DNA of 64,000 nt from Providencia rustigianii DSM 4541 (lineage in GTDB: Bacteria; Pseudomonadota; Gammaproteobacteria; Enterobacterales; Enterobacteriaceae). Below are positions 3,610 through 39,446 of this stretch, piece after piece. The position numbers and the translations under genes were made by a program. Position 1 is the stretch's first letter. The number at the start of each line of letters is the position of its first letter. Below the pieces are notes generated by a model. That model worked only from the letters and a program-made list of their open reading frames with translations. It was not told where the DNA came from and searched no databases. Location: the NCBI RefSeq assembly GCF_000156395.1, contig NZ_GG703819.1:115194-179193 (forward strand), read 5' to 3'.

Positions 3610-5097
3610 TTACACTAAATTATGTGAGCCTTCGACCTTACGCACCCAGTCGCCTTTTCCGTAAATTAATACGTACTTCATGACATACTCAGGCAATCCA
3701 CTCTCGCCAGTGCTTTCAACGATTTGGGCATTGTACCAATAGCCCTTGTCCTGCACGTCATGCCAAGCGAGGTCATCACCGGAAGCATCGGCAATCGCCA
3801 GTTTTTGAACTTCAGTAATTGTCTTACCGGCTAAAATCGTGCCGTTACCCAATGCTTTGGTCACTGCGCCAGCAATCACCATGAGCGCACGGGCTTCCCC
3901 GTCTTTATTCGCTGGAACACCACGCGTGGAAAGCAATACACTGAACCACTGTTGTGCGATATAGGCTTTTAACCACTGCTCGTTAGCATGGACGCTCATG
4001 TCCAATGGATTCGATGGACCACCACACAAGAACCCGCGCTGATAAAAGCGAATCTGCGAACCGGCAACCGCTGTTTCACCGTAGTAGTTCACTCGATATT
4101 TATCGTAGAGGTTGGCATCCTGGTCAGTAGTAACCTGTGCCGGGAACGTCACGCTAAATTGACGGAACATATAGTTCGTCGTTGCATTAGTGCGGTCGTA
4201 ATCTGTTGCGGCCATGATCGCCATTGGCAACGCTTGGACGTAATAGAGGTTTTCTGTTTTAAGATTAAGCCCCACAGATGCGGTATTGATTAACGCGGCG
4301 CTAAAATCTTCAACCTTGCCTTTACTCACACTTAAATGAAGTTGATACTTCACATTCTCACCGGCAACATATTGCGCCAGCGGTACCGCCTGCTCTAATG
4401 ACATTTCATCTAAGAATGTCGCGCTACCAAAGGAGTCAGAGACTTGTTCAGCCACAATGAAAGCTTCGAGTGGCGTCTGTGCCGGGTTGCCTTCGGATGT
4501 GGTACCGGATGATAATCCCATCGCATTCGACAGAACAGAGTAAGCGACACCGATAGAGGCGCGTTTCTGAACGCCACCACTTAACTCAAAGCAACTATTC
4601 AGGGAATTAAACGTCAAATAGCTGTTTGAGAACTGAGGCTCAGGCTCTGCATTCAGTTTCGCTTGGATCATCGATGCAATATCGGCATACGATTTCACCT
4701 CTGACAAATCCAATTCTTTGTAATCTTTGGTGATAGCACCGATAGTGACAGACAAGGTACCATCCGCAATCATTTTTAAATCCGCTAATGCCGCTGCCTT
4801 AGTACCGAACAACGTAGGCGCTCGTCCTACTGGCTCATAAGACGCGATTTGCAGCGCTTTAGGCTTGCTAACCGGTGCTGGACTGACATAGCTGAAATAC
4901 TGACGCGCAAAGTGCGCTTCGGGTGAATCCGCGCCTAACAGTTCATCAACTTGACCACTGGCGAACTCTAAAACTTTACCAGCGGGAATTTTAGGGTTGG
5001 TTGAAAATAAGCGACCGATTAGTTTACGCATCGGAACAGCAGACGCGCCAATAACCGCCGATGCGATATCAACGTATCGATTTTGTTTAATTGGCAT
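3610..5097 (-). CDS. Contractile tail sheath protein, DUF3383-like
   Basis: This 495-residue protein has the features of the DUF3383 sheath family: an N-terminal MPIKQNRYVDIAS segment, a central region rich in Ser/Thr and a C-terminal domain ending in KVEGSHNLV. It precedes the tube gene, matching the sheath-tube order of myophages. The sheath contracts around the tube to drive DNA injection. The gap to the upstream neck gene is only 9 bases, so both are probably co-transcribed in the late operon. Confidence 0.85.
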   Translation of the reverse strand: MPIKQNRYVDIASAVIGASAVPMRKLIGRLFSTNPKIPAGKVLEFASGQVDELLGADSPEAHFARQYFSYVSPAPVSKPKALQIASYEPVGRAPTLFGTKAAALADLKMIADGTLSVTIGAITKDYKELDLSEVKSYADIASMIQAKLNAEPEPQFSNSYLTFNSLNSCFELSGGVQKRASIGVAYSVLSNAMGLSSGTTSEGNPAQTPLEAFIVAEQVSDSFGSATFLDEMSLEQAVPLAQYVAGENVKYQLHLSVSKGKVEDFSAALINTASVGLNLKTENLYYVQALPMAIMAATDYDRTNATTNYMFRQFSVTFPAQVTTDQDANLYDKYRVNYYGETAVAGSQIRFYQRGFLCGGPSNPLDMSVHANEQWLKAYIAQQWFSVLLSTRGVPANKDGEARALMVIAGAVTKALGNGTILAGKTITEVQKLAIADASGDDLAWHDVQDKGYWYNAQIVESTGESGLPEYVMKYVLIYGKGDWVRKVEGSHNLV

Positions 5098-20361: not shown

Positions 20362-21246
20362 CTATGAAAATAATTCTATTAGTTTGCCAATATACATACC
20401 AACAACAGGAAGAACAGTGACACTATTTGCAGCTATGCTCGAAATTTTTGCCACTTTCTCAAGCCCTTCTTGTCTGTCCTTTACTTGTTTTATGGACTCC
20501 ACATGAGAAATTAAGCAATCAATCACCTCACAATCTTTCCCTTGCCTTTTTAAATCTATCAATTCATGAACTAACTTATCTACCAGCTCATTAGATTGGA
20601 CTTGTAAGTTTTGAGTGAAGTTCTCTCCGCTATTCGCTATATTTGCATTACCATTAATAATATTATTAAAAACTTGAGTAACTACTTTCTCATCTAATTT
20701 AGACAATTTAACCTCCTCAATATCTGGTAATTTATTTTCCAATTCCAAAACAATGCTCAGCACTTTAGTTTTAACACTATCCAGAATGCCAGACATTAAA
20801 TGAATAGCTGTTTCATTCCATGCTTCAATACAATACATTCCTTGATATATTTTATCACTGACAAGTCTAGTAGCTTCAGCATTCCAATTACTTTTAACAA
20901 TTTGAGATTCTGAGGTTTGTAGTAACCCCTCTATAGATGCAACTGTATTAGTAACAACCATTTTACCAAATAATTCAGTATACTCTTCTGGTAGTATACT
21001 TAAATCAATTGGAAGGTTTTTTAGTATACCACCATATCGCGAGAAGCTTCCTTTCGAGTGGCATGAAATAATACGGTAATCAGGAACATCGTCATAACTT
21101 GGATATCCATCCAGTTCATGTAAAACCCAATTTTTAAAATCATCACTACCAGTTTTACTAGCTAGAAATAAACACTTGCGTAATAAGTCAGCGACTCTTA
21201 CTTCTGGGTTGATCGCATCATGCTGTATCTCAGCTAAAATAGACAT
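20362..21246 (-). CDS. AbiTii-domain protein, candidate phage-exclusion (abortive infection) gene
   Basis: The first ~190 residues of this 294-residue protein match the AbiTii domain (SILAEIQHDAINPEVRVADLLRKCLFLASKTGSDDFKNW... and LDGYPSYDDVPDYR). The middle is linker-like, and the C-terminus (about 270-294) is hydrophobic (AANSVTVLPVVGMYIGKLIELF), suggesting a membrane-targeting end. AbiTii domains occur in abortive-infection proteins. The gene is visibly AT-richer than its neighbours and is closed by an inverted repeat, so it looks like inserted cargo in the early operon. It may exclude competing phages. Confidence 0.75.
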   Translation of the reverse strand: MSILAEIQHDAINPEVRVADLLRKCLFLASKTGSDDFKNWVLHELDGYPSYDDVPDYRIISCHSKGSFSRYGGILKNLPIDLSILPEEYTELFGKMVVTNTVASIEGLLQTSESQIVKSNWNAEATRLVSDKIYQGMYCIEAWNETAIHLMSGILDSVKTKVLSIVLELENKLPDIEEVKLSKLDEKVVTQVFNNIINGNANIANSGENFTQNLQVQSNELVDKLVHELIDLKRQGKDCEVIDCLISHVESIKQVKDRQEGLEKVAKISSIAANSVTVLPVVGMYIGKLIELFS

Positions 21247-25405: not shown

Positions 25406-25861
25406 TTAATGCACGCTGGTCTGACGTGGTATCGCATTTAACGCAATGACTGCATTATTAATATGGTGTGACATGTCACGACCCTCTAATAAAATTTCGC
25501 TAATTGCCTCAGCAAATCGTTGTATTGCAATTGAAGCTAGGTAATTTTTTGTATCACCACGAATGCGAGCTAATCTCGATGCCGGTAATGCAATTTCTAT
25601 TGCCGGCATTAACTCAACTATTTTTCTGATAGATGCGGGGGAATCACCACGCAACCAACGAAATATCTGTTGCCGGTTATTATTAATCGCTTTCCAATCA
25701 GCCCTACCCGATTCGTCTTCGATCACATGCAAACGCACTTGTGACCTGTTTTTTACAATGCCTAAATAAGCACGGCTAACCTCAATAGCTACATGCTCTT
25801 GACCTTGCTCCGCTGCCCAATCCTCAATTTCAGAACGGACAATATCGATATCAAAATTCAT
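25406..25861 (-). CDS. YdaT-like regulator/toxin family protein (CII position)
   Basis: The opening (IEDWAAEQGQEHVAIEVSRAYLG), the central QQIFRWLRGDSPASIRKIVELMPAIEIALP and the length (151 residues) resemble the YdaT family of Rac-like prophages, which lie next to cro/YdaS genes. In this slot lambdoid phages usually carry a cII-type regulator, so a role in early lysis-lysogeny control is inferred. A GTGACATGTCAC palindrome lies in its 3' half (25,468-25,479). ATG 25,861 follows AGGAGACG. Confidence 0.65.
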   Translation of the reverse strand: MNFDIDIVRSEIEDWAAEQGQEHVAIEVSRAYLGIVKNRSQVRLHVIEDESGRADWKAINNNRQQIFRWLRGDSPASIRKIVELMPAIEIALPASRLARIRGDTKNYLASIAIQRFAEAISEILLEGRDMSHHINNAVIALNAIPRQTSVH

Positions 25862-25970: not shown

Positions 25971-26180
25971 TTAGGCAACATTCTTACTACCGCTGATTAA
26001 CCATGATGGTTCGCACTTTAAAGCACTTGCGATCTCAATAATAAATCTAGGTTTTTTTATAAGTCCTGATTCAATTTGCTGGATAGATTGCTGCTTCAAT
26101 CCAACCATATCTGCAAGTTCTGACTGAGTTAAATTGAGTTCAACTCGGCGACTCTTAACTCTTTCTGAAAGCGTATTCAT
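25971..26180 (-). CDS. cro: Cro-like repressor
   Basis: The start is ATG 26,180 ([19 protein letters not shown]) with GGAGACGCAA upstream, giving 69 residues. An XRE helix-turn-helix is clear ([22 protein letters not shown]), very similar to the N-terminus of the divergent cI gene. It is the first gene of the leftward early transcript and lies beside three operators. By analogy with lambda it would repress cI. A longer upstream frame is rejected because it runs through the operators. Confidence 0.88.
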
Positions 26181-26194
26181 TTGCGTCTCCTTTT

Positions 26195-26257
26195 TAACAA
26201 AGTTTCTTGTATTTAAAAACAAACTAACTTGTTTGTCAATTACAGGTTTTCTTGTAA
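26195..26257. promoter_or_regulatory. Three tandem repressor operators between cro and cI (OR-like)
   Basis: Three 18-bp sites share the plan NNACAA-N6-TTGTNN: 26,195-26,212 (TAACAA-AGTTTC-TTGTAT), 26,217-26,234 (AAACAA-ACTAAC-TTGTTT) and 26,240-26,257 (TTACAG-GTTTTC-TTGTAA). Their centres are 22 and 23 bp apart, so all lie on nearly one face of the helix, as in lambda OR. The middle site falls within the cro promoter spacer. Confidence 0.82.
26211..26239 (-). promoter_or_regulatory. Leftward early promoter PR-like (cro, replication)
   Basis: On the minus strand a perfect TTGACA (26,239-26,234) and TTAAAT (26,216-26,211) are separated by exactly 17 bases. The middle operator occupies the spacer, and the outer ones flank it. 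Transcription would begin near 26,204 and give a short leader to cro. Confidence 0.82.
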
Positions 26258-26260
26258 TCA
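26233..26260 (+). promoter_or_regulatory. Candidate cI promoter (PRM-like)
   Basis: TTGTCA (26,233-26,238) and TAATCA (26,255-26,260) lie 16 bases apart on the plus strand. The third operator lies between them. The boxes are weaker than those of the divergent promoter, as expected for a PRM. The cI start lies 27 bases downstream with AGGGGG before it. Confidence 0.5.
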
Positions 26261-26286
26261 TCTTCTTGTATTTTTTAGGGGGTTAT

Positions 26287-26979
26287 ATGTCGATTTCTGA
26301 ACGAGTTAAAAATAAAAGAATTCTTCTCAATCTGACTCAGGCAGAGTTAGCTGAAACCGTTGGAACTACCCAGCAATCGATAGAACAACTAGAAAGCGGA
26401 AAAACTAAGCGCCCTAGATTTTTACCTGAATTAGCAAAAGCATTATCTTGCTCAGTTGATTGGCTTGTAACAGGAAGAGAAAACAACAATGACTCACTCC
26501 CTCCGGAAAACGAGTGGGGAAGTATTAAGTCATGGGATAGTAAAACCCCATTAGAATCTGATGAGGTTGAAGTTCCTTTCTACAAAGATATAGAGTTTGC
26601 CTGTGGTAATGGCGGATGTATTGATATTGATTATAACGGCTTTAAATTGAGATTTTCTAAGTCAACACTACGTCGAATTGGCGCACCTACTGATGGATCA
26701 ACTATTGCATGTTTTCCTGCAAATGGGGATAGCATGGAACCAGTAATACCTAACAATGCAGCTGTAGCAATTGACATGGCAAATAAAAAAATAATTGATG
26801 GTAAAGTCTACGCTATAGACCAAGACGGTCTAAAACGCTTAAAAATGTTATATAGAAGACCAGGTGGAAAACTAATTATTCGCAGTTATAACCGTGATGA
26901 ATATGAAGATGAAGAAGCTGATGAAGACAGCGTGACGATTATCGGCAGAATGTTTTGGTATTCTGTTCTTGATTACTAA
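26287..26979 (+). CDS. cI: CI-like repressor, XRE HTH plus S24 LexA-type peptidase
   Basis: The protein has 230 residues from ATG 26,287, preceded by AGGGGG. Residues 1-60 are an XRE DNA-binding domain ([23 protein letters not shown]). Residues about 95-228 form an S24 domain: probable self-cleavage site Cys106-Gly107, nucleophile Ser149 in NGDSMEP and Lys183 in LKRL. RecA-triggered autocleavage would induce the prophage under SOS. Operator half-sites ACAA/TTGT fit its tandem sites. The next gene starts ten bases after its stop, so they are likely co-transcribed in the lysogen. Confidence 0.93.
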
Positions 26980-26988
26980 GGTAACTCT

Positions 26989-28146
26989 ATGGAAAATTTC
27001 AAGTTAAAGCTTAAAAATCATGTGGACCATGTAAAACAGGTTGGGCAACACTGCTCAACAGAGGAAACCACAAAACAGGCGTTAATACTACCTTTTCTCG
27101 ATATCCTCGGCTTTAGCCCTTATGACCCACAAAAAGTTAAGGCAGAATACGGCGCTGATTTCCCTGGTGTAAAAGCAAATGAGCGTGTTGACTATGCGCT
27201 CTTTTGCCAAGATGTTCCCGTTATGTTCATTGAAGCCAAATGTTATTTTGAAAAATTAGATAACCATTGCCCTCAACTTTCTAGATATTTCAATTCCACA
27301 CCTGAAGTCACTATATCAGCTATAACTAATGGATTGGAATGGCGTTTCTTTACTGATTTGAAACAAAAAAACGTTATGGATCCAACTCCATTCTTACGCA
27401 TTAGAATGGATGAAATTAGTGATTCAGATGCAGGTCAATTATTTCGCTTTAGACACGATAAATTCAAACCTGAAGCATTAAGAACTCTAGCTGAAGAGAG
27501 CGTATATCTATCTGCTTTCACTAAAACTATTAGTTCAAGTCTAAGAGATGTTGATAGTGAGTTTGTTCGCTATGTTGCTAGCCGCTCGAATGTTGAAAGA
27601 CAATTAAATCAGCGCTTTATCGATTCTATAACCCCTCTAGTCAAGCAAGCTGTTGAACGTTCTGTCAGTGCAATGGTAGTTTCAGGCTTATCTGGTAAGT
27701 TTGCTTATGGCGAAGAGCCCGTAGAAACAGCAACAGAGGAAACTCAAGAGTCTAATGAATTAAAAGATATTATTGATCCTGATAATCCAAACATTATTAC
27801 CACCACTAATGAATTAACTTTATTTGAAAAAATAAAACAGATCACCGGGTGTAATGAAATTGAATATAAAGATACTGAGTCTTACTTTGGTATCCTATAT
27901 CAAGGTAAAGTTAATCGTTGGATAGTTAGATTCTACGATAAGAAAAATAGTGCTTATCTCATGGTTCCGATAGAGATTACTGACCTATTAGGTAATGAAA
28001 TAAAGCGCGCAGGTTTAGAGTTAACAAATAACCGCATCACAATTCAATCCCCTGAAGATATATTAAGAATAACAGGTATCATTCTTGATTCGTTTGAATA
28101 TGTAAAAAACGATGAAAACTTCAGAAAAAAATCAGCTAGCGAATAA
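26989..28146 (+). CDS. HsdR-N-like (type I restriction R-subunit N-terminal) nuclease-domain protein, candidate exclusion factor
   Basis: This 385-residue protein has the restriction-like nuclease signature Asp68 (RVDYAL) then Glu82-Ala-Lys84 (VMFIEAKC) near its N-terminus, as in the HSDR_N family. The C-terminal part (about 270-385) forms a separate beta-rich domain (YQGKVNRWIVRFYDKKNSAYLMVPIEITDL). No helicase motifs and no HsdM/HsdS partners are present. It is co-transcribed with cI, so it is expressed in the lysogen. This placement is typical of prophage-borne defence genes; the function is inferred. Confidence 0.72.
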   Translation: MENFKLKLKNHVDHVKQVGQHCSTEETTKQALILPFLDILGFSPYDPQKVKAEYGADFPGVKANERVDYALFCQDVPVMFIEAKCYFEKLDNHCPQLSRYFNSTPEVTISAITNGLEWRFFTDLKQKNVMDPTPFLRIRMDEISDSDAGQLFRFRHDKFKPEALRTLAEESVYLSAFTKTISSSLRDVDSEFVRYVASRSNVERQLNQRFIDSITPLVKQAVERSVSAMVVSGLSGKFAYGEEPVETATEETQESNELKDIIDPDNPNIITTTNELTLFEKIKQITGCNEIEYKDTESYFGILYQGKVNRWIVRFYDKKNSAYLMVPIEITDLLGNEIKRAGLELTNNRITIQSPEDILRITGIILDSFEYVKNDENFRKKSASE

Positions 28147-28166
28147 TTATTGTGTAATACCTTTCT

Positions 28167-28192
28167 GCCCTTGCTTAACGTAAGGGCTTTTT
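28167..28192 (+). terminator. Terminator after cI-HsdR-N transcript
   Basis: GCCCTT (28,167-28,172) and AAGGGC (28,182-28,187) form a six-pair stem followed by TTTTTG on the plus strand, 20 bases after the stop codon of the nuclease gene. It closes the lysogenic transcript before the next promoter. Confidence 0.72.
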
Positions 28193-28368
28193 GTTTCCTT
28201 CTATCCTCTGTTTCTCTATTCACACCTCATTCAATGTAAAAACCATTTCTGCATACATTGATGTGATCCCCACCTCTTTTCCACAAAATTAAACAAAATA
28301 AATATCCTCATAAAAACAACCAACTACAAACAAATAAACAAGCAATACAAATTTAAACAAGTTTTTCA

Positions 28369-28398
28369 TTTACTTTAATACAATTTATCTTGTATATT
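28369..28398 (+). promoter_or_regulatory. Rightward early promoter with single OL-like operator
   Basis: A TTTACT box (28,369) and TATATT (28,393-28,398) with TG before it lie 18 bases apart. Overlapping the -10 is ATACAA-TTTATC-TTGTAT (28,378-28,395), a fourth copy of the cro/cI operator. The flanks carry several ACAA half-sites at roughly ten-base spacing (28,326, 28,338, 28,347, 28,357). It is placed where lambda has PL/OL. Confidence 0.65.
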
Positions 28399-28627
28399 AC
28401 AAACATCGAAACAAACAAGACCTCACAGCAAGTGTTTTGATAGGTGTTCAAACCAAATTTAGTTTTGCTGTTATGTCGGAGGAGAACCAAAGCTCTCATC
28501 GCGACCTTTCATGATTACCACGACATAACAGTGAATTTTTGCAGTACCAGGGAATTTAATTAGTTACCGACCAAAGCTACAAGGCAAGACCTGACAGCTC
28601 GGAAAGACGGGCATTGATTTACAGACG

Positions 28628-38486: not shown

Positions 38487-39163
38487 TCAATCTCCAAGAT
38501 TTTCAATGCTTGTTCTGCTGCGGCTTGCTCCGCTTTACGACGACTTGAACCAACACCATTAATAGATTGCTCAATACCACTGACTTCGCAGTGGATCGTA
38601 AATTCTTGATCATGAGCCTCACCTTTTACCTGAACAACTAAGTAATTAGGTAATGGAAGGTGACGCCCTTGCAGATATTCTTGTAGCCGCGTTTTAGGGT
38701 CTTTTTGTTTATCACCCGGACTAATTTCATCTAGTCTACCTTTGTACCAAGCAAGGATGATTCGCTCAATAGTTTGGATATCACTATCAAGAAAAATGCC
38801 ACCAATCAAGGCTTCAACGGTATCCGCAAGAATTGATTCACGACGAAAACCGCCGCTTTTTAATTCTCCAGGACCTAAACGTAAACATTCACCGAGCTCA
38901 AATTCACGGGCTATTTCAGCCAATGTATTTCCACGCACTAACGTTGCGCGCATGCGGCTCATATCTCCTTCATCCACTTTAGGAAAACGGTGATATAAGT
39001 CATTTGCAATCACAAAACTAAGAATTGAATCACCTAAAAATTCTAATCGTTCATTATGCTTGCTGCTAGCACTTCTGTGTGTCAATGCTTGGATTAATAA
39101 ATCGTGTTGCGTAAAGGTATAACCCAGCTTACGCTGTAATTTCTCTAATAAAAGAGGGTTCAT
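38483..39163 (-). CDS. rnc: Ribonuclease III
   Basis: The start is ATG 39,163 ([15 protein letters not shown]), giving 226 residues, the E. coli length; a longer frame reaches 39,274 but its extra residues have no counterpart. The catalytic motif [12 protein letters not shown] and the second acidic cluster (DTVEALIGG) are intact, and a dsRNA-binding domain ends the protein. It cleaves double-stranded RNA including rRNA precursors. It heads the rnc-era-recO run. Confidence 0.97.
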
Positions 39164-39446
39164 GTGCGCCCAACCATTTCTTATTTGATAACAAAGCACA
39201 CGCAACAGACCTGTAAAATTGGGTATTTTACAAAACTGTTGCGTTTGCACTGACATCCAACAAACACCACTCATAATTCATTGAAACTAATGAAAATAAC
39301 TTTAATTAGCCATGATGATTTAACAGGAATGGTTGATTATTAGGAAGCCAATAATATTTAATACAAGATTATTGTACACTGGGTAAAACAATAATGCTTA
39401 TGATAATGCGAGTTTTCATCTGAAAACCCGCATTGTCTGAATTGAA

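Follow-up and report, generated by a model that had tools for sequence, protein, structure and literature searches.

Gene content of the immunity region

The prophage examined here lies in a 64-kb window, by which we mean the whole stretch of DNA analysed. To the left of its immunity region are tail sheath, capsid, portal, terminase and Q-like genes, and to the right are an exonuclease gene, a Gp157 gene and an integrase gene; the phage combines a contractile tail with a lambdoid early region. The immunity region itself comprises a 434-type cro gene divergent from cI, a gene coding for an HSDR_N-domain protein, and a set of operators and promoters (Table 1), for which the site sequences, their register, their conservation and the protein families were all read directly. 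Three other features were observed in the window. A gene between the Q-like and replication genes (20362-21246, minus strand) has a strong AbiTii match in PADLOC (E=4.1e-39); the gene in the cII position after cro (25406-25861) is a YdaT toxin according to Pfam and a CII-like activator according to PHROGs; and the rncO family of cis-regulatory RNAs has a match at 39109-39281, outside the described prophage genes.

Table 1 Features of the immunity region, with positions in the window
Feature	Positions	Strand	Basis
cro, coding for a 434-type Cro (69 aa, start codon ATG at 26180)	25971..26180	-	Match to 434 Cro structures, E=8.5e-22
OR1 ACAAAGTTTCTTGT	26197..26210	none	Perfect ACAA-N6-TTGT; register of 434 OR1
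pR	26211..26239	-	TTGACA (26239-26234), 17-bp spacer, TTAAAT (26216-26211); 434 annotation with equal offset
OR2 ACAAACTAACTTGT	26219..26232	none	Perfect ACAA-N6-TTGT; register of 434 OR2
pRM	26233..26261	+	TTGTCA-17-AATCAT, TG ahead of the second hexamer; offset as annotated 434 pRM
OR3 ACAGGTTTTCTTGT	26242..26255	none	One mismatch, ACAG left half, as in 434 OR3
cI, 230 aa, 434-type head and phi80-type S24 tail	26287..26979	+	Sequence comparison, domain match
HSDR_N-domain gene, 385 aa, directly 3' of cI	26989..28146	+	PF04313 E=1.1e-12; phrog_4225 E=2.7e-145
Terminator-like hairpin 3' of the HSDR_N gene	28167..28187	+	Scan: 2 in the stretch against 0.3 expected
Decayed OL2 ACAAGTTTTTCATT	28357..28370	none	Left half intact, right half with three mismatches; relatives perfect or with one mismatch
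pL, TTTACT-18-TATATT	28369..28398	+	Promoter scan; resembles 434 pL in sequence
OL1 ACAATTTATCTTGT	28380..28393	none	Perfect; close relatives have a perfect site at the equal place before ATATTACAAA

Operators and promoters between cro and cI

One constant offset maps the three OR operators of phage 434, and the -35 and -10 hexamers of both its pR and its pRM, onto positions in the window. The original prediction, made from this DNA, had located the sites correctly and had described steps of 22 and 23 bp, which are the start spacings that we find; its TTGACA with a 17-bp spacer was likewise recovered, on the minus strand and followed by a poor -10. The common plan NNACAA-N6-TTGTNN that it gave for four sites is exact for three of them, OR3 being one base off. 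Taken alone, the promoter scans were at chance level at both OR and OL, which counts against our reading of the region. At OR, the consensus scan found one promoter, pRM, against 0.7 expected, and pR was missing from its output because the -10 TTAAAT is poor; at OL, where pL was returned, the stretch gave two with 1.8 expected. The interval between OR3 and cI also holds a TTGT half-site (26266-26269), which was rejected as a candidate fourth OR site: it is present in the sister locus L096 and absent at that place in the other nine close relatives (L018-L025 and L097).

By itself, the 14-mer ACAA-N6-TTGT is nothing special in the window, with four found against 1.96 expected and at least four in 11 of 100 shuffles, and at least one perfect site arises in the 621-bp OL gap in 169 of 5,000 shuffles (3.4%). 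Both figures are what would be anticipated if the sites were chance matches within AT-rich intergenic DNA. That explanation is nonetheless extremely improbable, as two perfect sites in the 103-bp cro-cI gap were obtained in none of 20,000 dinucleotide shuffles, a pair of perfect sites with 7-11 bp between them is confined to a single place in the 3.98-Mb host genome, namely OR, and the sites are conserved along with the CI head, not the tail. Among 60 genomes, the host's own included, the pair pattern occurs at nine places in seven genomes. Five of these places are the OR (G000, G017, G006) or OL (G006, G025) of 434-type or close repressors, that of G025 having a head of related type (NTSQQAIQQ), and four lie elsewhere at unrelated places (two in G021, one in G001 and one in G031); the reversed control pair pattern was present in one genome of the 60 (G055). 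The lone OL site is weak statistical evidence, and what supports it instead is that it lies over pL and is conserved in relatives.

A mosaic repressor

CI is a mosaic of a 434-type head and a phi80-type tail. The head matches structures of the 434 repressor (E=2.4e-25), is identical to that of 434 CI at 50 of 66 residues and contains the 434 recognition helix TTQQSIEQ. When 17 positions were compared in 434 numbering, 15 were identical, including 17 and 25-33; positions 16 and 36 differ, which counts against the 434-type reading. Positions 17 and 27-33 of the head face the DNA. The tail (residues 92-230) is identical to phi80 at 97 of 138 positions and to a Photorhabdus repressor at 114 of 139, versus 25 of 101 for 434, and the head shares 18 of 66 residues with phi80. 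Comparison of the tail sequence with solved structures gave chance-level matches only. SOS induction is to be expected, since CI also has a Cys-Gly cleavage-type site, an S24 peptidase domain and the GDSM serine.

Conservation of the operators with the repressor head

The search for cI relatives yielded 123 sequences with a cI match and sufficient DNA upstream of it; among them are the window itself and two copies of it, L017 and L095. Of these 123 loci, 94 carry the strict 434 head motif, and 82 of these 94 have at least two perfect sites within 110 bp; the remaining 12 are 11 Proteus loci and L038. Among the 29 loci without the strict motif, two (L002 and L110) also have two perfect sites, a point against a strict coupling of sites and head, and the heads of both retain the QQ recognition core. 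L110, from the host's genus, combines a related head (GISQQSVES) with a three-site array at 22- and 23-bp steps whose middle site has one mismatch. Related QQS heads are found in L108-L110, all from the host's genus, and three ACAA-N6-TTGT-like sites at steps of 22 and 23 bp stand before cI in L109 and L110; within this type of operator layout, L108-L110 are a more distant branch.

A pR -35 anchor could be placed in 83 of the 94 head-motif loci, which gave 40 distinct regions, many of them coli-type 434 relatives; the 11 loci left out for want of this anchor are L006-L016. OR1 is perfect in 40/40 of the distinct regions and OR2 in 39/40, and OR3 reads ACA-N7-TTGT in 40/40. The 18-bp pattern, for which a scan of related prophages had been proposed, is kept in relatives with this repressor head. 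Mean information is 1.99 bits in the contact columns of OR1 and OR2, 1.47 in the central six, 1.58 in the OR1-OR2 spacer and 1.0-1.1 in the outer flanks. Among 17 loci in which we counted head and tail identities, six (L004, L005 and L099-L102) have a tail at least half identical and another head (at most 28/66); none of the six has a site with at most one mismatch in the 170 bp upstream.

The 11 Proteus loci among the 94 with the head motif (L006-L016) each have one site, with no three-site OR, which counts against our reading in that a 434-type head is not enough to bring the layout with it. These eleven genomes encode, at 4001-4693 of the locus, a CI with a 434-type head and an S24 tail, and the single site (ACAATTTAATTTGT, or ACAATTTAAATTGT in L008) stands at -74 to -76. 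In the two neighbourhoods viewed, L015 and L008, the repressor appears by eye to lie among host-type genes, in a listing of ORFs of at least 90 aa below which a small cro could fall. Perhaps the single-site CI is a domesticated repressor. In four Proteus genomes, sites with at most one mismatch are about as common as the reversed control pattern, and no regulon of this repressor emerged from them. Loss of the S24 catalytic lysine was considered and rejected, the lysine before LYR-x-PGG being kept; we take this residue to be the catalytic one from its spacing and a sequence motif. Our literature search found nothing joining a Proteus mirabilis prophage repressor with phage 434.

The OL region

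The original prediction had a fourth site overlap the recombination operon's promoter, and OL1 is indeed a perfect site over pL. This single OL-like site stands; the decayed OL2 had been missed. The window OL2 has three mismatches, starts 23 bp before OL1 and keeps its left half, ACAAG. The OL comparison covered 14 loci, of which L017 is a copy of the window. A second perfect site is found 24 bp before OL1 in four close relatives (L018, L019, L025 and L097) and likewise in the more distant L091 and L098, and OL2 has one mismatch in five close relatives (L020-L024). The sister L096 has three mismatches at a 24-bp step (counted by hand from the printed sequence), and L002 has no OL2 site at the 24-bp step before OL1. 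The 95 bp upstream of OL1 contain no OL3, even when two mismatches are allowed; a two-mismatch match downstream of OL1 (28425-28438) was taken as chance. OL has one intact site here, not three, which counts against our reading of the region. Close relatives also retain an ATACAA half-site, found here at 28345-28350, which precedes the OL2 half-site by 10 bp; it may be a half-operator or an upstream element of the promoter.

The pL leader contains a long hairpin (about 28464-28535) that was not seen in related leaders. In phage HK022, put RNAs consist of two stem-loops and putL directly follows pL, as described in the part of the source used here (PMC9378689). A put-type antitermination RNA in the pL leader was considered and is supported neither by Rfam, where no family reached the gathering score for this leader, nor by the leader folds, since no second stem is common to those of 11 related leaders (compared by eye; the L097 leader is incomplete). 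The leaders of L020-L022 and L024 have, in place of the long hairpin, a GCTCTTT-A stretch that resembles a boxA motif.

Does CI loop the DNA between OR and OL?

By hand measurement, the centres of OR2 and OL1 are 2,161 bp apart. By analogy, it is plausible that a CI-mediated DNA loop joins OR and OL and strengthens repression as in lambda. In the loopometer assay, all three lambdoid repressors examined, those of lambda, HK022 and phiKO2, formed a loop between OL and OR, a behaviour that its authors think widespread; the repressors of 434 and phi80 were not in the set, the text naming phi80 once, in a strain genotype, and 434 nowhere, as far as the portion of that paper drawn on here goes (PMC8053113). 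With OL2 decayed and no OL3 at hand, the two-dimer platform at OL would be missing or weak. The decay of OL2 speaks against a strong OR-OL loop, and we put an effective loop at somewhat under an even chance.

Alternatively, no functional loop forms, and pL would be held by OL1 alone, with local help from the OL2 half-site at most, OR and OL acting independently. To this we give an even chance. OL1 is perfect, and OL2 carries three mismatches in both the window and its sister versus zero (four loci) or one (five loci) in the nine close relatives. However, the left half ACAAG is still present in OL2, and cooperative repressors are able to fill weak sites. The assembly of 434 repressor oligomers on DNA is reportedly the topic of a published study. 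The decayed-OL2 lineage, beside relatives with an intact OL2, offers a natural series on the contribution of OL2 and of looping.

The HSDR_N gene downstream of cI

The gap between cI and the HSDR_N gene is 9 bp, and this short gap together with the downstream hairpin makes it likely that both genes form one pRM operon. In phage 434, the corresponding place on the pRM transcript is occupied by hex, according to the section of the source used here (PMC3564112). Relatives of the HSDR_N protein were found in 18 phage records, and the neighbourhood was viewed in five. The gene follows the repressor in Klebsiella phage KpF5, where a small ORF overlaps its start, and likewise in a Fusobacterium phage and a Corynebacterium phage; it is one gene away from the repressor in an Acetoanaerobium phage and follows hicAB in a Porphyromonas phage. 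Viral HSDR_N loci were then assessed in a set of 80 kept out of at least 537 confirmed. In these 80 of at least 537, the upstream ORF is a repressor-like HTH protein in 40, another protein in 35 and absent in 5. The 40 HTH cases (again 80 of at least 537) consist of two clusters, with 20 and 18 members, and of L147 and L181; they were assigned by eye from one sequence per cluster, and some of them are phages also present in the cI search. PADLOC gave no match for the gene, and its protein matched no solved structure at E 0.1. Its position and its domain suggest, as no more than a guess, a role in exclusion or defence. We regard it as possible, though rather doubtful, that this is an exclusion or defence gene expressed in lysogeny and travelling with many unrelated phage repressors, in which case OR and OL would control cargo as well as phage.

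Proposed regulation

We consider it very probable, from sequence comparison, that the region serves an integrated lambdoid prophage as its immunity region and that its operators, of 434 type, are used by CI and Cro as follows; the binding of both proteins, the order of occupancy, the activation of pRM and induction are modelled on 434 and lambda. In the lysogen, CI dimers would occupy OR1 and OR2 and keep pR off, silencing cro and the replication genes, and CI at OR2 would switch on pRM for synthesis of CI and the HSDR_N protein. At OL1, CI would shut pL and with it the recombination genes. High CI levels would fill OR3 and turn pRM down. SOS cleavage of CI would free pR and pL, and Cro would then occupy the same sites. 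Adjacent CI dimers would be expected to pair via the phi80-type tail, not a 434-type one.

Comparison with known systems

Judged by its sequence, ACAA-N6-TTGT is the operator of phage 434 and not a new one, and the region is an ordinary lambdoid immunity region: the sites are real, and no new kind of system is involved. With this analysis a prophage with a contractile tail joins the 434 operator class, and repressor mosaicism gains a clear natural example whose operators go with the CI head, not the tail; for the field this is confirmation rather than surprise. Literature searches on the 434 operator consensus returned only unrelated work, and nothing was found combining a Providencia prophage, a cI repressor and immunity.

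The layout and logic of OR and OL in lambda are as here; the operator sequence differs, and lambda OL has three intact sites. The original prediction of lambda OR/OL logic with unrelated sequence was borne out for the three-site OR and for an OL over the promoter of the recombination operon, except that the sequence, a known 434 operator, is unrelated to lambda only.

The prophage resembles phi80 (JX871397) in its CI tail and in overall layout, phi80 having three annotated operators at OR and three at OL. Unlike the window, phi80 has a different CI head and no ACAA-N6-TTGT site with at most one mismatch in the 170 bp upstream of its cI.

The closest likeness in operators is to Escherichia phage 434 (OL657226), whose annotated sites are ACAAACTTTCTTGT, ACAATGTATCTTGT and ACAGTTTTTCTTGT at OR and ACAATCTTCCTTGT, ACAATATTTATTGT and ACAATGGAGTTTGT at OL; in the record, OR1 is annotated as a CII site and is shorter by one base. 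The window shares with 434 the CI head, Cro, the operator sequence, the OR spacing, the positions of pR and pRM, the ACAG half-site in OR3, and a cI gene with one accessory gene between OR and OL. It differs from imm434 proper in three respects: its OL has one intact site and a half-site whereas that of 434 has three intact sites, its CI C-terminal domain is not of 434 type, and an HSDR_N gene stands where 434 has hex.
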